In this document: one piece after another, positions 9,478 through 24,140 of the stretch
Numbering within the stretch: position 1 is the first letter of the stretch
Layout: every line of letters begins with the position of its first letter
NCBI GenBank assembly: GCA_014381465.1
Contig: JACNLP010000054.1
Coordinates: forward strand, 1 to 57,693
DNA length: 57,693 nt
Source: Flavobacteriales bacterium
Lineage (GTDB): Bacteria; Bacteroidota; Bacteroidia; Flavobacteriales; BACL11
Direction of reading: 5' to 3'
Made by a program: the position numbers and the translations under genes
Notes under the pieces: model-generated
The model's database searches: none
What the model was told of the DNA's origin: nothing
What the model saw: the letters and a program-made list of their open reading frames with translations, nothing else

Positions 9478-10506
9478 ATGAAAAAAATAGCAGTTTTCCT
9501 TATATTATTTAGTACACTTTTTACCGCTTGCGAAACCGATTTTGATGTAAATGCTTCTTGGAAGGAAGTTACGGTTGTATATGGCCTTCTAGATCAAAGT
9601 CAAGAGCAACAATACATAAAGATAAATAAAGCATTTTTAGGAGAAGGAAATGCCTTGCAAATGGCTTCTATTTCTGATTCGGTTAACTATAATCCAGCTG
9701 ATTTGGAAGTAAAAATAATAAAAGTGAAAGATGGCTCTTTTGGAAGTGTTATAGCACTCGATACTATTGATTTAGATACTACATTAATTATTAAAGATGA
9801 TGGACTTTTTGCTACTGATGAAAATATAATTTACACTACTCCAAGTAATTTCTTTCTTACAAATAATGCTGATGAAAAGGATTATATCCTATCAATAGTA
9901 AATAAAAAATCAGGACAAAAGGTGTGGGCAAAAACTAACTTAATTCACGAACTAATGCTTGATATTCCAGGAAATAAACCAATGGGATTTTATGCAGAGG
10001 TTCCAAATCCTCCTGTTTCTCCACTTGAAAAAACTTCAACTACAGTAAAATGGTATCATTCTAAAAATGGAAAAATTTACCAAATTATTGCACGAATTCA
10101 TTACAAAGATTATTTTAATGATGGTACAGTTTCTTCTATGTATTTAGATTGGCTACAACCACAAATTATTTTTGAGAATACTAATGAAATGCATTATACT
10201 TTCAAGGGAGATGCTTTTGTAAATACATTGGCAAATAACCTTACAGTTCCAGCTAATCTTAAGGAGAGGCGATTGATAGAAATGGAGTTGCTGTTTACTG
10301 TAGGAAGTGAAGATTTACAAACATATATTAGTGTAAATGAGCCATTTGAAGGTATTGTACAAGAACGACCAGTTTTTACTAATATTAATAATGGAATAGG
10401 GCTTTTCACTAGCCGATATAACAAATCACATATAATGGAATTCTCCAGTACTACTAAGGAAGGTATCGAATTCGATTTAGATTCCTTAGGTTTTGTAGAT
10501 CCGTAA
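9478..10506 (+). CDS. DUF4249-type lipoprotein
   Basis: The 342-residue protein has a lipoprotein signal peptide with lipobox FTAC (Cys18), so it should be anchored in the outer membrane. The following VTVVYGLLDQSQEQQYIKIN stretch is typical of DUF4249 proteins of Bacteroidota, often found near TonB-dependent receptors; no receptor gene is adjacent here. No catalytic motif is visible. Function unknown. The family call is from sequence memory, not a search. Confidence 0.7.
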   Translation: MKKIAVFLILFSTLFTACETDFDVNASWKEVTVVYGLLDQSQEQQYIKINKAFLGEGNALQMASISDSVNYNPADLEVKIIKVKDGSFGSVIALDTIDLDTTLIIKDDGLFATDENIIYTTPSNFFLTNNADEKDYILSIVNKKSGQKVWAKTNLIHELMLDIPGNKPMGFYAEVPNPPVSPLEKTSTTVKWYHSKNGKIYQIIARIHYKDYFNDGTVSSMYLDWLQPQIIFENTNEMHYTFKGDAFVNTLANNLTVPANLKERRLIEMELLFTVGSEDLQTYISVNEPFEGIVQERPVFTNINNGIGLFTSRYNKSHIMEFSSTTKEGIEFDLDSLGFVDP

Positions 10507-14083: not shown

Positions 14084-14692
14084 GTGAGAAAAAAACACTG
14101 GGAAAATATTTATGCTACTAAAGGAATGCAAGAAGTTAGTTGGTATCAGCAGTCACCAAAAACTTCTTTGGAGTTAATTACTAAAGTTGCTCCAAACAGG
14201 AAAGCTTCTATAATTGATGTAGGCGGAGGAGATGGTTTTTTGGTAGATGAATTATTGAAATTAGGATATACCAATATTACGGTTTTAGATATTTCAGAAA
14301 ATGCGATAAATAAAGCTAAAAAACGCCTTGGAAAAATAGCTGAACAGATAAGATGGGTTATTTCTGACATCACAGAATTTTCTCCTAATCAGCAATATGA
14401 TGTTTGGCATGATAGGGCAGTTTTTCATTTTTTAACAAACAAAAAGGATGTTGAAAAATATAAAGATTTAGTAGCTGAAAATATTAGTAAAAAAGAACAT
14501 TTTATTTTAGCAACCTTTTCTGATAGCGGACCTAACAAATGTAGTGGCTTAGATATTTGTAAATATTCTGAAAAACAGTTGAAAGATACTTTTGCTGAAA
14601 AATTTAAGGTTTTAGATTCTTTTACAAAGAATCATAATACCCCATTTGGAACAAAACAGAACTTTACTTTTATGCTGTTTAGTAAAATATGA
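14084..14692 (+). CDS. Class I SAM-dependent methyltransferase
   Basis: The 202-residue protein begins with GTG and reads MRKKHWENIYATKGMQEVSW. Motif I for SAM binding is IIDVGGGDGFLVDELL near residue 40, with the acidic motif II residue in ITVLDIS and the post-motif WHDRAVFHFLT near residue 108. This HDRAVFHFL signature marks a widespread bacterial group of small methyltransferases whose substrates are unknown. No signal peptide; cytoplasmic. Confidence 0.85.
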   Translation: MRKKHWENIYATKGMQEVSWYQQSPKTSLELITKVAPNRKASIIDVGGGDGFLVDELLKLGYTNITVLDISENAINKAKKRLGKIAEQIRWVISDITEFSPNQQYDVWHDRAVFHFLTNKKDVEKYKDLVAENISKKEHFILATFSDSGPNKCSGLDICKYSEKQLKDTFAEKFKVLDSFTKNHNTPFGTKQNFTFMLFSKI

Positions 14693-14741: not shown

Positions 14742-14749
14742 TATGTTTG
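14742..14749 (+). promoter_or_regulatory. -7 promoter element of the copper/redox cluster
   Basis: TATGTTTG matches the Bacteroidota TAnnTTTG box. Its position just before ATG 14761 argues that the upstream in-frame ATG at 14743 is inside the promoter and is not the start. No clear -33 TTTG was found at the standard distance. Confidence 0.5.
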
Positions 14750-14760
14750 CACCATCAAAA

Positions 14761-15210
14761 ATGAATAAAAGATTCAAATATATAATTGTATTATGTTTTA
14801 CTGCCTTCACATTGTTTGTTTCGGTAGGAATTAATGTTAATAAAATGCAGTGCGAAAAAGGTGCTAGGATCTTTGTGGGAATAGAATCACCTGATTGTAA
14901 GACAGAAAAACAAATCATTTGTCCTAAACAAATTACTAAAGAAAAGTGCTGTAAGAAAAAGCAAGAAACCGAAAAAAAACCAAAAGGAGATTGTAAAAAA
15001 AGATCTACACTTTTACAATTTGATTTTATCACTCAAGAATGTAAATGCAGTGAGGTTTTGGATTTTTCTGTTTCTCAACCGTTTTTAACAATATTATACG
15101 ATTATTATCAGAATTTTGAATCTGATATATATTATACCCTCCATTATGCTGATGCACCGCCTCTGGTGAAAAAGCCCATATTGTCCCAATTACAGTCCTT
15201 TCTTTTATAG
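14761..15210 (+). CDS. Cys-rich HYC_CC_PP-like exported protein (first copy)
   Basis: The product is 149 residues from ATG 14761. It has an N-terminal hydrophobic signal or anchor (IIVLCFTAFTLFVSVGINV) followed by NKMQCEKG, a double-Cys site KCCKKK, a Lys-rich run, a KCS site and a DAPPLVKK motif. The spacing of a first Cys, a CC pair and a PP motif matches the HYC_CC_PP family of Bacteroidota, here with KMQC instead of HYC. Such small Cys-rich proteins often sit before TonB receptors and are suspected metal handlers. It ends in QSFLL exactly like its paralogue at 20943. It opens the co-directional cluster and lies before the multicopper oxidase. Confidence 0.65.
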   Translation: MNKRFKYIIVLCFTAFTLFVSVGINVNKMQCEKGARIFVGIESPDCKTEKQIICPKQITKEKCCKKKQETEKKPKGDCKKRSTLLQFDFITQECKCSEVLDFSVSQPFLTILYDYYQNFESDIYYTLHYADAPPLVKKPILSQLQSFLL

Positions 15211-15239
15211 GATTTAGATTTTTTGTTTCTTGATTTTGC

Positions 15240-15268
15240 TTGGTAATATTTGTTACTGGCAATACCAA
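15240..15268 (+). promoter_or_regulatory. Inverted repeat upstream of the multicopper oxidase gene
   Basis: TTGGTA (15240-15245) and TACCAA (15263-15268) form inverted arms 17 bases apart, with a GTAATATTTGTTAC near-palindrome inside (15243-15256). It could be an operator, but no regulator is known from the window. Confidence 0.3.
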
Positions 15269-15308
15269 TGATTTTAACACACTAAAAAACAATCTAAAAC
15301 TTATAAAA

Positions 15309-17021
15309 ATGAAAAAAATCTTAAAAATTGCAATAGTGCTGATTGCAACAAACAGTTTAACAGCACAAAACCCATTAATTGTTCCACCAACAATGAGTGG
15401 AACAACATTTAACATTACAATTGCAGAAGATTCAATGGAATTTTTCCCTGGACATTTTACAAAAACTTGGGGCATGAGTTTTCCAATTCTTGGTCCAACC
15501 TTAATAATGCAAAAAGGAGATGTAGTAACTGTAAATTTTGATAATCAGCTCTCTAAAACTACTACTATGCATTGGCATGGGGTTCATCTTCCGTCAATAA
15601 TGGATGGCGGACCTCATACAGTTATCCCGGCAGGAGGAACATGGAGTCCTACCTGGACTGTAATGGATAAAGCGGCAACCTATTGGTATCATCCTCATTT
15701 ACATCATAAAACTTATGAACATGTAATGAAAGGATTAGCAGGATTCGTTATAGTAAAAGATGATGATGAAGCTGTGCTTGATTTGCCAAGAACTTATGGA
15801 ATAGATGACATTCCTGTTGCATTACAAACTAAAGTAATGGATGCAAATTATCAGATTGATGATAATGAAGCAAATGCTGCTATGGATACGCTTCTACTTG
15901 TGAATGCGACAAGAGATGCTTATTTTGATGCTCCTGCTCAAGTAGTAAGGTTACGACTTTTAGATGGATCCTTGGAACGCTCTTATAATATAGGGCTTAG
16001 TAATAATGCTAACTTTTTTGTAATTGCTTCTGATGGAGGCTTGTTAAATGCTCCTGTTGCTCTTAATCGATTACTAATGAGCCCTGGCGAGAGATATGAA
16101 ATATTAATTGATTTAACAAACATGCAAAACGACACCATTCAATTAATAAATTACGGAACAGGAATTCCTAGTGGTGTGTATGGAACTGATCCGGCAAATC
16201 TTGGAGGAATGGGGCAAGTTCAACCGATTCCATTTTATTCTTCTAATCCATTAAATGGAGCGGACTTCCCTTTACTTACTTTAAATATTGGAGCTCCTAC
16301 AGCTAATGCCGTTACTAGCATTCCAGCTACTTTGGTGAATGTTACACAATGGAGCCAAGCAAATGTGGATGAAAATCGACAGCTTGATTTTTCTGTAGCT
16401 GGCGGTATGGGAGGCCCTACTGGTTTAACCGGTCCTTTCCTTATCAATAATGCTCCTTTTGATATGAATGTAATTAATTATCAGATACCTATTAATAATG
16501 TAGAAATATGGACACTTAATAATCAATCTATGATATCTCATCCTTTTCATATACATGATGTGCAGTTTAATATTTTAGAGATAAATGGAGTGCCTCCACC
16601 AGCACACATGCAAGGTTGGAAAGATATGGTTTTGGTGCCTGCATTTATGGGTAGTGCAAAATTCATTACAAAGTTTGAAGATTTTACCGATCCTGTAACT
16701 CCTTGGATGTATCATTGCCATATTATTACACATGAAGATACCACAATGATGGGGCAGTTTACGGTAGTAGATGCTGTATCATCAGTTCAGCTAATAGAAA
16801 ATAATGCGTTTAGTATTTTTCCTAATCCTGCTAATTCTCACTTAAATATTGAGTTAAAAGATGTAATAAACCCGAAAGTAGAAATTAAGGACTTAACAGG
16901 TAAAATAATGTTTAAAGGAATTTTAAATAAGCAAACTTCTACAATTGATGTAAGTAAGCTTAGCAATGGAATTTATTTTATAAAAATTAATAATACTACA
17001 TCAAAATTTATTAAACAATAA
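15309..17021 (+). CDS. Multicopper oxidase with T9SS sorting domain
   Basis: The start is ATG 15309, which puts a normal signal peptide (cut after LTAQ, residue 20) at the N-terminus; an in-frame ATG at 15240 would bury it. All four copper-binding motifs are present: HWHGVHLP, WYHPHLHH, HPFHIHDVQF and HCHIITHEDTTMM, the last giving the type 1 site with Met as axial ligand. The 570-residue length fits a three-cupredoxin-domain CueO/laccase-like enzyme that oxidises substrates such as Cu(I), Fe(II) or phenols while reducing oxygen to water. The last 80 residues (FSIFPNPANSHLNI to SKFIKQ) are a type A T9SS signal, so it should be on the cell surface or outside, not periplasmic. A hairpin follows it. 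Confidence 0.93.
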   Translation: MKKILKIAIVLIATNSLTAQNPLIVPPTMSGTTFNITIAEDSMEFFPGHFTKTWGMSFPILGPTLIMQKGDVVTVNFDNQLSKTTTMHWHGVHLPSIMDGGPHTVIPAGGTWSPTWTVMDKAATYWYHPHLHHKTYEHVMKGLAGFVIVKDDDEAVLDLPRTYGIDDIPVALQTKVMDANYQIDDNEANAAMDTLLLVNATRDAYFDAPAQVVRLRLLDGSLERSYNIGLSNNANFFVIASDGGLLNAPVALNRLLMSPGERYEILIDLTNMQNDTIQLINYGTGIPSGVYGTDPANLGGMGQVQPIPFYSSNPLNGADFPLLTLNIGAPTANAVTSIPATLVNVTQWSQANVDENRQLDFSVAGGMGGPTGLTGPFLINNAPFDMNVINYQIPINNVEIWTLNNQSMISHPFHIHDVQFNILEINGVPPPAHMQGWKDMVLVPAFMGSAKFITKFEDFTDPVTPWMYHCHIITHEDTTMMGQFTVVDAVSSVQLIENNAFSIFPNPANSHLNIELKDVINPKVEIKDLTGKIMFKGILNKQTSTIDVSKLSNGIYFIKINNTTSKFIKQ

Positions 17022-17035
17022 TTTTAACTATTTTT

Positions 17036-17063
17036 ACACTCCCAAAATTTATTTTGGGAGTGT
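17036..17063 (+). terminator. Strong hairpin after the multicopper oxidase gene
   Basis: ACACTCCCAAAA (17036-17047), loop TTTA, TTTTGGGAGTGT (17052-17063): a perfect 12-base stem. The tail ATTATTTAAC is only partly T-rich, so it may act as a partial terminator or protect the 3' end of the upstream mRNA. Confidence 0.65.
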
Positions 17064-17099
17064 ATTATTTAACAAATACAAAATAAAACACGAATCAAC

Positions 17100-17729
17100 A
17101 TGAAAACAAATAAAAAATCAATTATTATGAGTAAAAAAACAATTTTAACATTAGCACTTGCTTTTGTAGGTACATTTGCAATGGCACAAAATCAATTTAT
17201 GACTTGGAGTCACAATGGAGGGCATACACCATCACAGTATTTAACTGTAGATTGTAATGAGCCATTTGAATTTCATAATGTAGGATTTCAAACTCACCCA
17301 GTTGCTGAGGGAGGGTTCGGTCCATCAACTGATCCGAATTTTTGGCCATCACAAAATTTAACATTAACTCCTGCTATGGGGGCATCTAATCCTATGATAG
17401 TAACTATTCCTACTGCAGGGACTTACAATTTTAAATGTGGATCGAATCCAACTAAACAAGCTTTATGGGGTCAAATTATGGTAACTGGTCCCGGGTGTGA
17501 AGGAGCAACTTCAGTTGAAGTAATTGAATCGGATAAATTTACTATTTACCCTAACCCTGCAACTGATGTATTAACTATTGAAGGATTGAATGGTGCTGCT
17601 GTGGTGTTTGATGTAAATGGTAAAAAAGTAATGAATGTAATGTCTGGAACTTTTGATATCTCAACTTTATCAAATGGAACTTATATTGTAAAAGCAGAGA
17701 GCTTTACAACTAACTTTATTAAAGAATAA
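17100..17729 (+). CDS. Cupredoxin-like T9SS protein
   Basis: The 209-residue protein has a signal peptide ending at AMAQ; the start may be ATG 17100 or ATG 17127 (MSKKTILTLAL), the latter giving a more usual length. Residues about 31-130 look like a plastocyanin/azurin beta-sandwich: a first ligand region with FHNVGFQTHPVAEGG and a second with TYNFKCGSNPTKQALWG. The Cys is present, but the His at +3 and Met at +8 of a classical type 1 site (C-x2-H-x4-M) are Asn and Ala. Copper binding is therefore uncertain. The C-terminal 75 residues (FTIYPNPATDVLTIEG onward) are a type A T9SS signal. It lies between the oxidase and the CPGC protein. Confidence 0.78.
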   Translation: MKTNKKSIIMSKKTILTLALAFVGTFAMAQNQFMTWSHNGGHTPSQYLTVDCNEPFEFHNVGFQTHPVAEGGFGPSTDPNFWPSQNLTLTPAMGASNPMIVTIPTAGTYNFKCGSNPTKQALWGQIMVTGPGCEGATSVEVIESDKFTIYPNPATDVLTIEGLNGAAVVFDVNGKKVMNVMSGTFDISTLSNGTYIVKAESFTTNFIKE

Positions 17730-17731
17730 TC

Positions 17732-18598
17732 ATGAAAAATATTTTAATTTTAGGTGTATTAATTGCTTCTGCAATTGCACAAATTTCGGCACAGACAATT
17801 ACAACTGAGAGTGGCTGGAAGAATGATTTTAATAGCTACCCAAACAGTTTAAGGGTGGTAATGACAAATGATCCTAGTTGCCCCGGCTGTTTGGAAATGG
17901 TAAGCAATCAGATTGCTATTTATGAGAATGTACATGGTTGTGGTTTAAACTCATCTATTCAATACTTTTTTAATTGGACAAAGGTATTTACAACTACAAC
18001 CTATTCTGATGCCCAAATAAGAGAAGGGCAATTTCAAGATCCAACATTACAAGGAAGGTATCATCATTATTATGATTCTACTCAAGTCATCTCTGATAAA
18101 ATACAAGATATGCTAGGGTTGGTTGATCCTTCTGGTGCAGGGGGTGTTTATACTGGGTGGCATACCCTACTTTTTTACGAACCAGGTATTACTTGGGGCA
18201 ATACTATTAATCCTCCTTTTCCTACTTTTTGGATGCACAAATTAGATACAATTTATAATGCCGATCCTTTGCTTTATTACGATTCGGCTACTGTTGCACT
18301 TAATTTTAATATTATTGCTTGTGCAGCAACCTCAGTAGATGAAACTTCTGCATTTGATAAATTCTCAATTTTTCCTATACCTTCTGATGGTAAAAATTTA
18401 AAGATTAGCATAAATGTAAATGGAAGAAATAATAGGCTTGTAATTGTAGATATAATGGATAGAATTATTTTTGATGAGAAGATAAATTCAGCAACTACTT
18501 TTGATTTGCCTGCAAAATTAAATTCTGGCACTTATATTGTTTCTTTTATTGAGGGTAATCATACTATTACATCACGAAAAATTGTAATCACTGAATAA
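17732..18598 (+). CDS. T9SS protein with a CPGC motif
   Basis: The 288-residue protein has a signal peptide (cut near ISAQ) and a C-terminal T9SS-type domain (FSIFPIPSDGKNLKI to KIVITE). Near residue 50 it reads MTNDPSCPGCLEMV, a CxxC site at the end of a predicted beta strand, as in thioredoxin-fold proteins, with further Cys in VHGCGL and IIACAA. The region with GVYTGWHTLLFYEPGITWG is also thioredoxin-like in character, but I do not recognise the family. It starts two bases after the cupredoxin-like gene and its stop overlaps the next ATG by one base. A thiol or metal-relay role is inference. Confidence 0.65.
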   Translation: MKNILILGVLIASAIAQISAQTITTESGWKNDFNSYPNSLRVVMTNDPSCPGCLEMVSNQIAIYENVHGCGLNSSIQYFFNWTKVFTTTTYSDAQIREGQFQDPTLQGRYHHYYDSTQVISDKIQDMLGLVDPSGAGGVYTGWHTLLFYEPGITWGNTINPPFPTFWMHKLDTIYNADPLLYYDSATVALNFNIIACAATSVDETSAFDKFSIFPIPSDGKNLKISINVNGRNNRLVIVDIMDRIIFDEKINSATTFDLPAKLNSGTYIVSFIEGNHTITSRKIVITE

Positions 18599-19041
18599 TG
18601 ATAAAGAAATTCATAATCCTATTTTTCTTAGGAACTATTTTGTTGTCATGCGAGAAAGATAAAATTCCTGTGGAACTTGTTGATTATTCTTTAATAAGGG
18701 ATATCAGTTTTCAGAATGATTTGCAACCCATTTTTGATAAGCAATGTGGTACTCAAGGTTGTCATTCGTATTTTGAAGCAGCCGGAAAGTTAGATTTACA
18801 AAAGTATGCTTATCTTGATTTAACTCAAGAAAAGTCGCATGAATTTCCTAATATGTACAGAGTTAAACCTAATAATTTAGATAGCTCAGTACTTATTCAA
18901 AAATTAAATAAAAATTCAGCATTTGGAGTAGGTATGCCAGCATCATTAGTAGGGGCTAATATCGTATCTATTCCTTTAACAGGAGACTCTTCTTTAATGA
19001 TGATTAAAGCTTGGATTATGCAAGGAGCAAAAGAGAATTAA
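18598..19041 (+). CDS. Lipoprotein with CX4CH heme-like motif
   Basis: The 147-residue protein has a lipobox (LLSC, Cys18). After the phrase NDLQPIFDKQ it has CGTQGCHS, a C-x4-C-H site like the variant heme-attachment site of some multiheme cytochromes; a GMPAS stretch further on offers a Met as possible axial ligand. Bacteroidota encode many lipoproteins of this QPIF...CH type, often near cytochromes. It should be membrane-anchored on the periplasmic side or at the outer membrane. Heme binding is likely but not shown. It overlaps its upstream neighbour by one base and lies three bases before the cytochrome c gene. Confidence 0.72.
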   Translation: MIKKFIILFFLGTILLSCEKDKIPVELVDYSLIRDISFQNDLQPIFDKQCGTQGCHSYFEAAGKLDLQKYAYLDLTQEKSHEFPNMYRVKPNNLDSSVLIQKLNKNSAFGVGMPASLVGANIVSIPLTGDSSLMMIKAWIMQGAKEN

Positions 19042-19044
19042 CAG

Positions 19045-19416
19045 ATGAAAAGTTTACTTACAATAACCTTTATAGGAACTTTGCTTTTAGGAGAGTGGGT
19101 AGCACCAGAATCGGCAAAAGAATTAAAAAATCCTTTTGCACTAGATGATGAAAAAGCAATAAAAAAAGGAGGAAAGATTTTTGGTCAACTTTGTTGGACT
19201 TGTCATGGAAAAACAGGAAAAGGAGATGGACCTGCAGGGGTAAACTTACAACCAACACCATCTGATTTTTCTTCTATTAATTTGCAAAAGCAATCAGATG
19301 GAGAATTATTTTGGAAAATAACTAACGGCAAAGGGGTAATGCTATCTTATGAAGATTTATTATCTGATAAACAAAGATGGCAATTAGTAAATTTCATCAG
19401 AACACTGAAAGAATAA
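19045..19416 (+). CDS. Small monoheme cytochrome c
   Basis: The 123-residue protein has an N-terminal signal segment and the heme site CWTCHGKTGKGDGPAG near residue 50, then LQPTPSDF and a Met in GKGVMLSYEDLLS that can be the axial ligand, ending in a last helix WQLVNFIRTLKE. This is the class I cytochrome c layout. It should work in the periplasm as an electron carrier. Its stop overlaps the ATG of the DUF5777 barrel gene by one base, so the two are translationally coupled. Confidence 0.9.
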   Translation: MKSLLTITFIGTLLLGEWVAPESAKELKNPFALDDEKAIKKGGKIFGQLCWTCHGKTGKGDGPAGVNLQPTPSDFSSINLQKQSDGELFWKITNGKGVMLSYEDLLSDKQRWQLVNFIRTLKE

Positions 19417-20300
19417 TGAAATATATAATTTTAATAATCACAATTTTTAGTAGTACAATTTTGTTCTCGCAATCTAAAGGGCTAAGCAATACATTTAATC
19501 ATACTACTTTAATTAATGGACAAACAACCGAGATGATGGCAAAAGATTCTTGGGAGTTTAGAATTCAACATAGGTTCGGACAAGTTGGTTTGGACTCTAC
19601 TCTATATGAAGAATTTTTAGGATTGGATATGCCAGCAAACATTCGTTTTGCTTTTAATTATTATATTTCTGATAGGCTGTATATTGGAATAGGAAGAACA
19701 AAGTACAATAAAACTTTTGATTTTGAAGCAAAGTATAAATTGCTTAATCAAACTAATTATGGTTCTATGCCAATATCTTTGGCTATTTACAGTAATCTAA
19801 CTTATAATTCTTCTGACCAACCAAAAGCAATTGCGCCATCTTTGTTTGCAAATATAGTGGATGGAGATACCATTCCTTTTGAGTACTCTAATGCTCATAG
19901 GATAGCTTACAATAGTCAGATAATTATTTCTCGAAAAGTAAATAGTAAATTATCGCTTCAGGTAGCTCATACTATTATTTATAAAAACTTAACAGTTGCA
20001 ACAGAGGATAACCTAACCGCTATTATGATTGCGAGTGGTAGATATAAGTTTGGCTTGAGAACTTCTGTGCTTTTTGAGTATGCATATAAACTAAACAATG
20101 TAATTGATAACCCTTATAATGAACTAGATAATCATTGGTCATTGGGTTATGAATTTGCAACCTCTGGGCATGCTTTTCAGATAGTAATGAGTACTTCTTC
20201 TCATTTGGTGGAACAAGATATTTACACCTCAAAACCTGCCGATTTTATAGCAAATAAATTTATTTTAGGATTTAATATAAGACGAACAATATGGAAATAA
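19416..20300 (+). CDS. DUF5777-family outer-membrane beta-barrel protein
   Basis: The start is ATG 19416, overlapping the cytochrome c stop; an earlier in-frame ATG at 19377 lies inside the cytochrome gene and would hide the signal peptide. The 294-residue product has a signal peptide (ILFSQ) and the family landmarks LINGQTTEMMAKDSWEFRIQHRFG, ANIRFAFNYYISDRLYIGIGR and a Phe/Lys-ended last strand (FIANKFILGFNIRRTIWK). Alternating strands indicate an outer-membrane barrel. DUF5777 proteins are commonly encoded beside c-type cytochromes and YceI-like proteins in Bacteroidota; function unknown. Confidence 0.82.
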   Translation: MKYIILIITIFSSTILFSQSKGLSNTFNHTTLINGQTTEMMAKDSWEFRIQHRFGQVGLDSTLYEEFLGLDMPANIRFAFNYYISDRLYIGIGRTKYNKTFDFEAKYKLLNQTNYGSMPISLAIYSNLTYNSSDQPKAIAPSLFANIVDGDTIPFEYSNAHRIAYNSQIIISRKVNSKLSLQVAHTIIYKNLTVATEDNLTAIMIASGRYKFGLRTSVLFEYAYKLNNVIDNPYNELDNHWSLGYEFATSGHAFQIVMSTSSHLVEQDIYTSKPADFIANKFILGFNIRRTIWK

Positions 20301-20941
20301 TAAAAAGAAATTTAATTTTAGCAATTGTATTTTTACCAGCATTTTTGCTTGCTCAGAGTTTGAGTATTAGTGGGCCAACTATAGTAAATGGTAACCCAAA
20401 TACAACAATTACTCAAAAGTACTCTATTACAAATAATACAAATGATACTCTGCATATATTATGCAAAAAAATAATTATTGATACTGCTGCTGGTACAATC
20501 AATTATTTTTGTTTGGGTGATGATTGTTATGGAGAGGATGTATATACTGCTTGGGCGGTAGCAACTTTTTTACCTTTCCAAACAAGAGATTCTGTTTTTA
20601 TTGGCTATTACGCACCTTTTGGCTTAGCTAGTCAGGCCGTAATAAAATATAAGTTTTATCCGTATAATGATTTAACAGATACTACTACAATTACTATTAC
20701 TTACAATGGAATAATTTCATCAATTAATCAGATGAAAAATAGTTTTTCAGTTTTCCCTAATCCTGTTCAAAATACTTTGTATTTATCTGAATATGTAAAT
20801 TCAGTTAAGGTTTCTGATTTGAATGGGAAATTAATAATCTCTCAGAAAAATAATGTAAATACTATTGACGTTAGTAGATTAAGTAAAGGAGTTTATTTTA
20901 TTGATGTAGATGGGGTTAAATCAAAATTTGTAAAATATTAA
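20291..20941 (+). CDS. Small T9SS secreted protein of unknown function
   Basis: The 216-residue protein has a signal peptide (FLLAQ) followed by an immunoglobulin-like beta region (ISGPTIVNGNPNTTITQKYSI) with a FCLGDDCYG pair of cysteines, and a type A T9SS domain (FSVFPNPVQNTLYLSEY to SKFVKY). The first domain resembles sandwich domains of surface proteins in which an N-terminal tract is followed by Cys pairs. Its start overlaps the barrel gene by ten bases, implying coupling. Confidence 0.75.
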   Translation: MEIIKRNLILAIVFLPAFLLAQSLSISGPTIVNGNPNTTITQKYSITNNTNDTLHILCKKIIIDTAAGTINYFCLGDDCYGEDVYTAWAVATFLPFQTRDSVFIGYYAPFGLASQAVIKYKFYPYNDLTDTTTITITYNGIISSINQMKNSFSVFPNPVQNTLYLSEYVNSVKVSDLNGKLIISQKNNVNTIDVSRLSKGVYFIDVDGVKSKFVKY

Positions 20942-20942
20942 A

Positions 20943-21398
20943 ATGAAGTTAAAAGAAATATTCAAGGTAGTTTCATCTATTGTTATGGCAGTATTTATAT
21001 TGACAATTTCAATAGGAATGGATATTTCTAAGATGCAGTGTGATAAAGGAGGTTTGTTGTATTTAGGAAGTGAGATTCCTTCCTGTAGTTTGCAAGAAGA
21101 GGTGGTTTGCGAGTCAGAACAAGAAAAAGTAAGTTGCTGTATGATAGAAATTGAAAAGTCTTGTTGCCCTGAAACAGAAGACAAATCTTGTGCAAGTGAA
21201 ACTAAAAATATTCACTTTGATTTTGAAACTACTGTAAGTATTTCGGATTTTGATTTTGACTTACAATTAGTTTCATTGCAGCTGTTTAGCATTTATAGTG
21301 TAATAGTAACAGGAAAATCAAATAAATATATCAGTGGCATACCGCCACCAAAATTACTAAAACCATTTTTACCTCAGATACAATCATTTTTATTATAG
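20943..21398 (+). CDS. Cys-rich HYC_CC_PP-like exported protein (second copy)
   Basis: The 151-residue protein has a hydrophobic N-terminus (VVSSIVMAVFILTISIGMDI), then SKMQCDKGG, a Cys-rich run with VSCCMIE and SCCPETE, and IPPPKLLK, ending in QSFLL. The layout equals the paralogue at 14761 but with more Cys (a second CC pair) and the fuller PPP motif. It begins one base after the T9SS protein and precedes the TonB-dependent receptor, which is the usual genomic place of HYC_CC_PP proteins. A metal-handling role is inferred. Confidence 0.72.
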   Translation: MKLKEIFKVVSSIVMAVFILTISIGMDISKMQCDKGGLLYLGSEIPSCSLQEEVVCESEQEKVSCCMIEIEKSCCPETEDKSCASETKNIHFDFETTVSISDFDFDLQLVSLQLFSIYSVIVTGKSNKYISGIPPPKLLKPFLPQIQSFLL

Positions 21399-21430
21399 GA
21401 TATTATTCAGAATTATAAACTGATTAATAA

Positions 21431-21471
21431 TGTCATCCTGTGTTAGATTCTGAATTAAATTCAGAATGACA
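21431..21471. repeat. Palindromic intergenic repeat (TGTCATCCTG type), copy 1
   Basis: TGTCATCCTG (21431-21440) pairs with CAGAATGACA (21462-21471), with a nested hairpin TTCTGAA/TTCAGAA (21448-21454 and 21460-21466). It sits between the second Cys-rich gene and the TonB receptor gene, and overlaps an in-frame ATG at 21466 that is therefore unlikely to be a start. Related to the element at 52734-52806. Confidence 0.6.
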
Positions 21472-21486
21472 ATAAAAAAAATAAAA

Positions 21487-23691
21487 ATGAAAAAAATAGT
21501 AATGATTGCAATGGTGCTTATTGCAACTTTAAATTCAAAAGCACAAGAAGAAAAGATAAAAGGAAGAGTAGTAGAGCAACTTCAAGATGGAAGTGAAGTA
21601 GGAATTCCTGGAGCAAATGTATATTGGGAAGGCACAACAACAGGTGTTGCTACCAATGCTGAGGGTTATTATTTAATACCTTCCCCTGAATCTTATCCAG
21701 CAACTATAATAGTTAGTTTTGTAGGTTATCAAACTTACACACAAGAAATTAAAAAGTGGAGTCATTATCATATTTACTTAAAACCATCAGTGGAACTGGA
21801 TGAGGTAAATGTAAAAGGTAAAGTAAATACCACTAAATTTTCTACTATTAACCCTATTAATATGCAAACGCTTTCTACTGGAGAGTTGGAAAAAGCGGCT
21901 TGTTGTAACCTATCAGAAAGCTTTAGTACGAATGCAACAGTTGATGTTACTTTCACTGATGCAGTTTCAGGGGCTAAGAAAATTCAGATGTTAGGTTTAG
22001 ATGGTGTTTATACTCAAATAACTCAAGAAAATATTCCTTTAATTAGAGGAATGTCATCATCTTATGGTTTAAGTTATGTTCCTGGTACTTGGATAGAATC
22101 CATTCAGATTATAAAGGGTAGTGGCTCTGTAATTAATGGATTTGAATCCTTTGCAGGGCAAATTAACTTAGAGTACTATAAGCCTGCATCTGCACCTAAA
22201 TTGTATTGGAATGTGTATACTAATTCTGAAGGGAAATTAGAAAATAATTTACTTTTTGCTAAAAAATCAGGTAAATGGCAATCTAACTTATTTACGCATG
22301 TTTCTTATTTTGATAAAGATGTGGATAATAGTAATGATGGCTTTTTAGATATGCCAAAAGTAAAGCAATTAAATGCGCTTAACAGATGGCAATATACAGG
22401 AAATAAAAACTATCATATTGCATTTACAGCAAGAGGTTTAGTTGAGGATAGAATAGGAGGAACAAAAGAAAATGTAGAGATTCCTTATGTGGTTGATATT
22501 CACAATGATTTGATAGAGTTTACTTCAAAAACTGGTGCTGTTCAACCAAGTTCTCCAGGTAAAAGTGCTGGTTTACAAACTTCATTTACAAGGCATTATC
22601 AAAAGGCTCAATTTGGAGACAATATCTATGAAGGATTGCAAGAAAGTGCATTTGCTAATTTGTTAAGACAAACCTATATTGGAAATACAGATCATAAGTT
22701 AAAATATGGTTTGAGTTCTTATGCTGATAGATTTACTGAAAAATTCACTGGAAAAATTGATGAAGAAATAGATATTGTTAGAGTTGATTTAGTTTCTGGA
22801 ATTTTTTCAGAATACTCATATAAGTGGGGTGAGAGTTTTGATTTAGTGGCCGGATTACGAGCTGATTATTACAACAAAACTGAGGAGTTTACTTATTTGC
22901 CAAGATTGAATATGAAGTACAATCCTAATGAAAATACTGCTATTAGATTTTCAGCTGGTAGAGCTTTTAGAGTGGCAAATATTTTTGTTGAAAATGCTTC
23001 ATTCTTGGCTTCATCTAGGCATATCTCAGTTGGAGCATTGAACCCTGAATTGGCTTGGAATTATGGTGTAAATCTTACTTACAGCTTTAAATTATTTAGT
23101 AGAGAAGGAACTTTTAATGCAGATATGTACAGAACAGAATTTGAGAATCAAGTGGTGGTAGATATTGAAACTCCTGGAGAATTATCCTTCTATAATTTAG
23201 ATGGAGAATCGTACGCTAATAGTATGCAATTTGATTTGGCTTATGAGGTTTTTGATAGATTTGATGTTAAGATGGCTTATAAAATAAATGATGTTCACTC
23301 TACTTTTAATGGAAAAGAGAAAATAGCACCACTTACTCCTAAAAATAGAGCATTACTTAATATGTCATACGCTACTAATTTTGATAAATGGGTATTTGAT
23401 GTAACTGCAAATTATGTAGGAGAGAGCAGAATTCCGGCACATGAAATTGAAGAAGGTTCTAGTGTTGTTAAGGGTTCATCAGATCCGTTTTACCTTATTA
23501 ATGCACAAATTACAAAGAAATTCCGTAAGTTTGATGTGTATATGGGGGGTGAGAATTTATTGAGTTATATGCAAGAAAATCCTATAATTGATGCTGCTAA
23601 CCCTAATTCTGATGTATTTGATGCATCATTAATTTACGCGCCAGTTATGGGTAGAGTAATCTATGCAGGATTTAGATATAAAATGAAATAA
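21487..23691 (+). CDS. TonB-dependent receptor, metal-related type
   Basis: The start is ATG 21487 (MKKIVMIAMVLIATLNSKAQ), giving a clean signal peptide. The 734-residue protein has an N-terminal carboxypeptidase-regulatory-like domain (IKGRVVEQLQDGSE to WSHYHIYLKP, about residues 22-110), a plug domain with a KAACCNLSESF Cys pair and LIRGMSSSYGLSYVPGTW, and then a 22-strand type barrel ending in GFRYKMK. The plug sequence is the type found next to HMA proteins and HYC_CC_PP proteins in Bacteroidota, which suggests uptake of a metal or metal complex, perhaps copper. No TonB is encoded nearby. The HMA gene follows directly. Confidence 0.9.
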   Translation: MKKIVMIAMVLIATLNSKAQEEKIKGRVVEQLQDGSEVGIPGANVYWEGTTTGVATNAEGYYLIPSPESYPATIIVSFVGYQTYTQEIKKWSHYHIYLKPSVELDEVNVKGKVNTTKFSTINPINMQTLSTGELEKAACCNLSESFSTNATVDVTFTDAVSGAKKIQMLGLDGVYTQITQENIPLIRGMSSSYGLSYVPGTWIESIQIIKGSGSVINGFESFAGQINLEYYKPASAPKLYWNVYTNSEGKLENNLLFAKKSGKWQSNLFTHVSYFDKDVDNSNDGFLDMPKVKQLNALNRWQYTGNKNYHIAFTARGLVEDRIGGTKENVEIPYVVDIHNDLIEFTSKTGAVQPSSPGKSAGLQTSFTRHYQKAQFGDNIYEGLQESAFANLLRQTYIGNTDHKLKYGLSSYADRFTEKFTGKIDEEIDIVRVDLVSGIFSEYSYKWGESFDLVAGLRADYYNKTEEFTYLPRLNMKYNPNENTAIRFSAGRAFRVANIFVENASFLASSRHISVGALNPELAWNYGVNLTYSFKLFSREGTFNADMYRTEFENQVVVDIETPGELSFYNLDGESYANSMQFDLAYEVFDRFDVKMAYKINDVHSTFNGKEKIAPLTPKNRALLNMSYATNFDKWVFDVTANYVGESRIPAHEIEEGSSVVKGSSDPFYLINAQITKKFRKFDVYMGGENLLSYMQENPIIDAANPNSDVFDASLIYAPVMGRVIYAGFRYKMK

Positions 23692-23710
23692 TAATTTAAA
23701 AAATAATAAA

Positions 23711-24073
23711 ATGAAGAAAATAATTATTGCCTTATTTAGTATTTTAACAATAAATGCTTGGGCACAAAAAGAAACTGTTCAAATAAAAACTACTGCACAA
23801 TGTGATATGTGTAAAGAAAGAATTGAAGAAGAAATGCAATTTACAAAAGGAATTACAGCTGTTAATTTAGATGTTGAAAGTCAAATATTAACAGTAACTT
23901 TTAAAACTAAAAAGAACTCAGTTGAAAATATTAGAAAGATAATTTCTAGCATTGGATATGATGCTGATGATGTGAAAGCTGATAGGAAAGCCCATGACAA
24001 CTTGCCTAACTGTTGTCAAAATCCTGAACTTACTGGTTCGGATAAAAAAGTAGTACATCCTCAGAAAGATTAA
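23711..24073 (+). CDS. Exported HMA-type metal-binding protein
   Basis: The 120-residue protein has a signal peptide (INAWAQ) and a heavy-metal-associated domain with CDMC near residue 33 (TTAQCDMCKERIEEEM), the fold of Atx1/CopZ, ended by SIGYDADDVKAD. A C-terminal tail with HDNLPNCCQN adds another possible metal site. It should bind Cu(I) or a similar soft metal in the periplasm. Last gene of the co-directional cluster, 19 bases after the receptor and 6 bases before a strong terminator. Confidence 0.88.
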   Translation: MKKIIIALFSILTINAWAQKETVQIKTTAQCDMCKERIEEEMQFTKGITAVNLDVESQILTVTFKTKKNSVENIRKIISSIGYDADDVKADRKAHDNLPNCCQNPELTGSDKKVVHPQKD

Positions 24074-24079
24074 AAAAAA

Positions 24080-24106
24080 GGAGAGCGAAACGCTCTCCTT
24101 TTTTTT
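24080..24106. terminator. Strong terminator ending the copper/redox cluster
   Basis: GGAGAGCG (24080-24087), loop AAA, CGCTCTCC (24091-24098), perfect stem, with eight T after and eight A before. It can stop transcripts from both sides, since the symporter gene converges on it. Confidence 0.9.
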
Positions 24107-24140
24107 ACATTAATTTATTTAGGATATCAATTGCTGATTC

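Follow-up and report, generated by a model that had tools for sequence, protein, structure and literature searches.

A chimeric eleven-gene operon for exported copper and redox proteins in a Flavobacteriales bacterium

Does a compact run of genes for exported copper and redox proteins in a flavobacterial genome represent one conserved system, or has it been put together from parts? The run occupies positions 14761-24073 of contig JACNLP010000054.1 (assembly GCA_014381465.1) from a Flavobacteriales bacterium of the GTDB lineage BACL11; the whole stretch of 57,693 nucleotides that was analysed is hereafter called the window. An earlier note on this DNA had proposed a surface module for copper handling and electron transfer. 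Our analysis supports both functions but not the single module: the eleven genes form a genuine, closely packed operon, but a chimeric one and not a conserved system. Its parts, each of a familiar kind or a domain of unknown function, recur elsewhere, while the eleven-gene whole does not. Taken as a whole, the locus is best explained as a composite operon for outer-membrane copper and redox work, a reading to which we give an even chance. Its components are as follows (MCO, multicopper oxidase; T9SS, type IX secretion system):

14761-15210, + strand: HYC1, small, exported and Cys-rich, homologous to HYC2 and partner of the MCO
15309-17021, + strand: T9SS-secreted, CueO-like MCO (Cu-oxidase_3, Cu-oxidase_2 and Por_Secre_tail)
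17127-17729, + strand: T9SS protein with cupredoxin-like motifs and incomplete type-1 copper ligands (Por_Secre_tail, 42.5 bits)
17732-18598, + strand: T9SS protein with a CPGC motif, an orphan, possibly thioredoxin-like (TIGR04183, 31.2 bits)
18598-19041, + strand: lipoprotein monoheme cytochrome c (lipocytochrome) with a CX4CH motif and the start C-EKDKIP, of the same family as lipocytochromes adjoining DUF5777
19045-19416, + strand: monoheme class I cytochrome c with CWTCH and a distal Met (Cytochrome_CBB3/Cytochrom_C)
19416-20300, + strand: DUF5777 outer-membrane β-barrel with 12 predicted strands (DUF5777, 233.6 bits)
20291-20941, + strand: T9SS protein of unknown fold (Por_Secre_tail, 45.2 bits)
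20943-21398, + strand: HYC2, a HYC_CC_PP-like Cys-rich protein (HYC_CC_PP, 25.7 bits), first gene of a family-wide core
21466-23691, + strand: TonB-dependent receptor (Plug and TonB barrel domains)
23711-24073, + strand: exported HMA metal-binding protein with CxxC and a C-terminal CC (HMA, 35.4 bits)
24071-24107, unstranded (detected on both strands): bidirectional intrinsic terminator with a perfect 17-pair stem

The open reading frame (ORF) calls for the window agree with the earlier description of eleven co-directional genes for exported proteins closed by a perfect terminator. Six consecutive junctions, from 17729 to 20943, measure -10 to +3 bp, and the others 98 bp (HYC1 to MCO), 105 bp (MCO to the cupredoxin-like gene), 67 bp (HYC2 to the receptor gene) and 19 bp (receptor gene to HMA gene). 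The terminator lies between the operon and a convergent symporter gene, which it also serves. Composition gives no sign of a recent foreign origin, since the GC content at third codon positions (GC3) of the eleven genes, 0.16-0.25, is close to the window mean of 0.23. The genome (1.98 Mb in 85 contigs) has a completeness of 97.45% and a contamination of 0.11%, and an assembly chimera is judged unlikely because the upstream order (the gene at 9478, DnaK, aminotransferase) is that of the genus-mates G204 and G092 and the receptor set comes after it.

Three conserved sub-blocks can be recognised: HYC-TonB-HMA; HYC1-MCO-cupredoxin-like-T9SS; and cytochrome c, DUF5777 barrel and lipoprotein cytochrome. 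The second and third, together with the orphan CPGC gene, are inserted between genes that adjoin in relatives. On the upstream side of the insertion lies one further gene:

14084-14692, + strand: S-adenosylmethionine methyltransferase with a GTG start (Methyltransf_25, 44.6 bits), co-directional with the eleven-gene set and directly before it

In 10 of the 20 loci taken from relatives, the gene directly upstream of the receptor core is a methyltransferase gene 61-70% identical to this one. In one of these relatives (L095) it is separated from HYC2 by 25 bp, versus about 6.2 kb in the window (HYC1 through the 20291 gene), and in G204 and G092 the slot holds two rhodanese-sized genes (rhodanese was shown for L084). 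Given its position directly before the set here and directly before the core in relatives, the methyltransferase gene may belong to the operon as its first member. In a Thermoanaerobaculia genome (L156), a relative with 49% identity to it adjoins an MCO.

In one relative the second sub-block occupies an unrelated site, the location of the MCO gene differs among family genomes, the CPGC gene is an orphan, and the full eleven-gene set was found in no other sampled genome; a single conserved eleven-gene module is therefore rejected. Scattering without shared order, which the earlier note had named as grounds for refutation, thus holds for the set as a whole, but not for its sub-blocks. The uniqueness of the set, the orphan gene and the fact that the MCO in G204, G092 and G011 is never beside the receptor would also suit two unrelated cassettes sharing one transcript by chance, with the MCO and cytochromes acting elsewhere, for example in the oxidation of organic or sulfur substrates. 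We regard this as a possible, though rather unlikely, account: six tight junctions follow one another without a break, MCO relatives lie in copper loci, and the homology between HYC1, by the MCO, and HYC2, by the TonB receptor (E 8e-20), ties both cassettes to one family of small proteins. Moreover, a distant Bacteroidetes genome (L164) independently unites an MCO with HMA, HYC, HMA and a 39% identical TonB receptor, in that order, so that an MCO and the receptor set have been joined more than once.

The composite reading takes its copper side first from the HYC-TonB-HMA core. The receptor gene is present in 42 of 52 family genomes, and among the 20 relatives' loci a HYC gene lies directly upstream of it in 17 and an HMA gene directly downstream in 14. 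The domains of both the receptor and the HMA protein, named in the earlier note, are clear in profile searches, and the paired Cys and C-terminal CC of the latter are kept in the relatives compared. The two Cys-rich proteins had been described as HYC_CC_PP-like; their mutual homology is sound, but neither reaches the family cut-off, with HYC2 at 25.7 bits against 28 (NF047658) and HYC1 having no NCBIfam match, and in both of them the HYC of the family is replaced by KMQC. In the receptor, residues C146 and C147 of the plug and M175, H278 and H377 are invariant in 22 of 22 compared sequences, and the protein is likely to be a copper receptor, as judged from sequence and setting. OprC and CrtA are TonB receptors able to import copper (PMC12914433); like them, the window receptor is encoded in a copper gene context and has Cys, Met and His residues that are invariant, and it too may import copper. 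Unlike OprC, whose copper site has the motif CxxxM/HxM (PMC11213822), it lacks this motif and is not assigned to OprC, and unlike either protein it has a carboxypeptidase-like N-terminal domain and HYC and HMA partners. In relatives the HYC-TonB-HMA set comes after a persulfide-handling operon (L082:1052-6551, L016:13746-17005) that comprises a Crp regulator, thioredoxin, rhodaneses, a TauE exporter, a metallo-β-lactamase/rhodanese protein (persulfide dioxygenase-like) and a methyltransferase; the HYC1-MCO locus of G011 likewise follows Crp, thioredoxin and rhodaneses.

The secreted MCO had been credited with all copper motifs, and these (HWHG, HPHLH, HPFHIH and HCHxxxHExxMM) are indeed unchanged between the window protein and four homologues, which places it in the MCO superfamily. 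Its best PDB relatives are CueO entries, and it resembles CueO in its three domains, full set of copper ligands and axial Met. Unlike periplasmic CueO, it is predicted to be secreted by the T9SS, and it scores 371.8 bits against the cut-off of 525 of the CueO equivalog (NF008205), so that we are unsure of its substrate. Of 296 genomes of the order, 6 encode the enzyme, the window genome among them. In G011 a 65% identical MCO is preceded by a HYC gene whose product is nearer HYC1 (43%) than HYC2 (35%) and followed by genes for two T9SS proteins, one of them cupredoxin-like and 50% identical to its window counterpart, far from that genome's own HYC-TonB; in G204 the MCO follows aroQ, and in G092 a distinct MCO adjoins a diheme-peroxidase-like gene. 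In the MCO tree the window enzyme groups with those of G011 and G204; two Marinimicrobia enzymes form the sister group (100/100), and the enzyme of G092 falls in another clade. One of the Marinimicrobia enzymes (L109) has a CopA-like ATPase directly downstream. Among 80 MCO loci, with related loci counted more than once (as in all locus figures below for the MCO, cytochrome and barrel), a small HMA protein occurs in 11 and a P-type-ATPase motif, searched as the plain pattern DKTGT, in 15. Copper handling is therefore supported by the HMA protein, by a receptor with invariant plug Cys and by a CueO-like MCO whose relatives stand beside CopA-type ATPases or HMA proteins. One further element follows the MCO gene:

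17035-17064, + strand: perfect 13-pair hairpin in the gap between the MCO gene and the 17127-17729 gene

Its T run is weak; it is possibly a partial terminator or an mRNA stabiliser, and the ratio of upstream to downstream transcript may be set by it.

Significant T9SS tails are carried by four proteins, namely the MCO and the products of 17127-17729, 17732-18598 and 20291-20941. These are type A sorting domains, and with the T9SS translocon protein SprA encoded in the genome the four proteins qualify as T9SS cargo. The tail of the CPGC protein lies above the TIGR04183 cut-off and just below that of Pfam, and its score upholds the earlier reading of this protein. For the protein described as T9SS-secreted and cupredoxin-like, the tail stands, whereas the cupredoxin part has no Pfam or PDB cupredoxin match: its His and Cys are conserved in two homologues, and the second His after the Cys is absent in all three. 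With this incomplete ligand set, a blue-copper (type-1 cupredoxin) function is rejected. The domain has no relative in 247 genomes of the class; relatives were found in G011 and in a Neomarinimicrobiota locus (L135:4779-6293), where a fusion protein, encoded two genes ahead of an MCO, combines it with dockerin-like repeats and a diheme cytochrome c peroxidase. The gene between this fusion and the MCO is acetolactate-decarboxylase-like, and such a gene is also present in the G011 locus. The CPGC protein has no relative in the 296 order genomes or the 247 class genomes; its match to a T9SS thioredoxin-like protein (L082:9688-10470) is weak (27%), its AlphaFold model is useless (predicted local distance difference test, pLDDT, 32) and its PDB match insignificant. 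The tail of the 20291-20941 product is 54-61% identical to that of a T9SS protein of about 680 residues encoded upstream of HYC in L086-L089 and L093. Compared with L086:5142-7196, it occupies the same slot before HYC2 with an unlike body and a like sorting domain, as though the tail had been retained through an exchange of the body.

What, then, do the heme proteins contribute? The monoheme cytochrome c and the DUF5777 barrel of the earlier note are borne out (44 bits for the former; for the latter the PF19089 score listed above and a 12-strand model), and the CX4CH lipoprotein is indeed a lipoprotein, more precisely a c-type cytochrome of a recognisable set. In 395 Bacteroidia genomes, relatives of the 19045-type cytochrome occur in 85 and a DUF5777 of the window type (E under 1e-38) in 25; the DUF5777 proteins of other family members only reach about 1e-32. 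Of 20 DUF5777 loci, 18 contain the cytochrome, which directly precedes the barrel in 17 of these 18, and 15 contain a lipocytochrome of the 18598 type. In 20 further cytochrome loci without a window-type DUF5777, the next gene encodes a Porin_O_P-like barrel in 13, usually followed by a heme lipoprotein of 90 residues. Overall, a barrel gene is the next one on the same strand after the cytochrome in 30 of 38 loci, the background being 35 barrels among the 541 ORFs of these loci; because the presence of DUF5777 had been the criterion for taking the first 20 loci, the second 20 (13/20) are the fair part of this test. The order cytochrome, Porin_O_P-like barrel and 90-residue heme lipoprotein is seen in L114, L115, L116, L125, L128, L144, L155 and L266-L280, and two Pfam barrel families thus occupy one gene slot.

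The window holds this triad of lipocytochrome, cytochrome and barrel genes in adjacency, in that order as opposed to the cytochrome-barrel-lipocytochrome order found across Bacteroidia, with the CxKD of the lipocytochrome present and the following GP absent. The DUF5777 copies typical of the bacterial family itself are about 33% identical to that of the window. Of 29 such copies, 23 lie within 1.5 kb of a gene for a small heme protein, compared with a heme motif in 3 of 174 small ORFs from control loci, and 24 are accompanied by YceI. The window locus is like these YceI-DUF5777-lipoprotein cytochrome loci in pairing DUF5777 with a small heme protein, and unlike them in lacking YceI and in being of the Bacteroidia-wide triad type. 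The full text of 5.39 million open papers contains no mention of DUF5777, and literature searches on T9SS MCOs with cupredoxins, on HMA with TonB in Flavobacteria and on lysyl oxidase with T9SS returned nothing useful.

Further redox genes surround the unit elsewhere. A T9SS protein with a lysyl-oxidase domain is encoded in 10 of the 20 DUF5777 loci and a Fer4_5 polyferredoxin with tetratricopeptide repeats (TPR) in 11; an MCO adjoins the unit in L225 and L230, and Fer4 and NrfD membrane modules precede it in L228 and L268. Conversely, the 19045-type cytochrome is present in 8 of the 80 MCO loci, a barrel coming next in all 8. The MCOs so linked belong to at least three clades besides that of the window enzyme, so the link has probably been made several times. 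The claim of outer-membrane electron-transfer proteins is supported by the association of cytochrome, barrel and lipocytochrome across Bacteroidia. A longer conserved run, consisting of a T9SS heme-motif protein, a T9SS lysyl-oxidase-like protein, polyferredoxin-TPR, cytochrome c, DUF5777 and lipocytochrome (L213:2038-8415, L214, L216, L217 and L218), spans several Bacteroidia families and is an unnamed system in its own right.

Lipocytochromes beside DUF5777 start with C-x-K-D-x-G-P: Lys at +3 and Asp or Glu at +4 are found in 12 of 13, versus 3 of 49 other lipoproteins of the same loci (p 2.6e-9). The window protein starts with C-E-K-D-K-I-P, and the surface-export signal tested in Capnocytophaga is C-x-K-(D/E)2-x (PMC5080379); the likeness suggests that the lipocytochrome may be on the outer face. 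The AlphaFold model of the DUF5777 protein, built from 26 sequences, has 12 strands and a mean pLDDT of 86.7, and Foldseek relates it to the porins NanC, KdgM, OmpG and FapF (TM-scores 0.3-0.5). A barrel of this predicted size would be too small to enclose a cytochrome, leaving any electron path to run beside it or through contact between the monoheme proteins. The locus is like the Mtr, Mto and Pio conduits and Cyc2 in having a barrel gene beside cytochrome genes, one of the cytochromes being a lipoprotein. It is unlike them in its monoheme cytochromes, its 12 predicted strands and its lack of a fusion or a multiheme protein. An Mtr-type porin-cytochrome conduit is rejected, since a 12-strand barrel cannot hold a cytochrome and each protein has one heme motif.

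In an alternative reading the operon serves copper detoxification only: the surface MCO and the HMA and HYC proteins would keep copper off the cell, DUF5777 would be an ordinary diffusion porin, as its likeness to the small porins NanC and KdgM would allow, and the cytochromes would serve respiration, for which the two heme-copper oxidase subunits I encoded in the genome offer a use. The CueO-like character of the MCO and the CopA neighbour in L109 are in line with this. Profile searches, however, revealed no efflux pump or copper sensor among the operon genes, and across Bacteroidia these barrels adjoin heme proteins, lipocytochromes included; we consider the alternative improbable.

In the composite operon that we prefer, copper, probably chelated, would enter through the TonB receptor, and the HMA protein and the Cys-rich HYC proteins would bind it in the periplasm; family membership and context make such capture the most likely role of the core. 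The T9SS-secreted MCO, with its own HYC and cupredoxin-like partner, would most likely, by homology, oxidise Cu(I) at the surface with O2. The gene association further leads us to infer a relay in which the periplasmic cytochrome c, the barrel and the probably outward-facing lipocytochrome would pass electrons between periplasm and surface and serve the secreted cuproproteins, for instance as a reductant of Cu(II) ahead of its uptake or as a source of electrons for the oxidase. Localisation, substrates, direction of flow and any physical complex are likewise what we infer. Outward flow is somewhat more likely, because relatives of the unit, though not the unit in the window operon, adjoin quinol-linked membrane modules. 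Several findings weigh against the composite reading: the absence of the full set from all other sampled genomes, the MCO score below the CueO cut-off, the single acidic residue after the Lys where the tested export signal has two, the predicted barrel too small for a cytochrome, and the absence of an inner-membrane electron donor among the operon genes. That the unit is instead a respiratory outlet or inlet for an outside substrate, with the MCO as its surface enzyme and effectively an extracellular terminal oxidase, is in keeping with the Fer4-NrfD and polyferredoxin neighbours of its relatives and with MCOs joined to it in several clades, but is very unlikely for an operon that has no membrane module and combines a 12-strand predicted barrel with monoheme cytochromes only, unlike known conduits.

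How electrons are supplied to or removed from the secreted redox enzymes of Bacteroidota, and how these bacteria acquire copper, are both poorly known. Tentatively, and with more doubt than belief, we propose that the cytochrome, a barrel of DUF5777 or Porin_O_P type and the surface lipocytochrome constitute an undescribed monoheme outer-membrane electron-transfer system of Bacteroidota that powers or drains T9SS cuproenzymes (MCO and lysyl-oxidase-like) and is linked to copper capture within the window operon. Of everything at the locus, this recurring unit of cytochrome, barrel and lipocytochrome was the least expected and most deserves work; it is a concrete candidate for electron traffic across the outer membrane of Bacteroidota, and the operon suggests that secreted cuproenzymes may be one of its clients.

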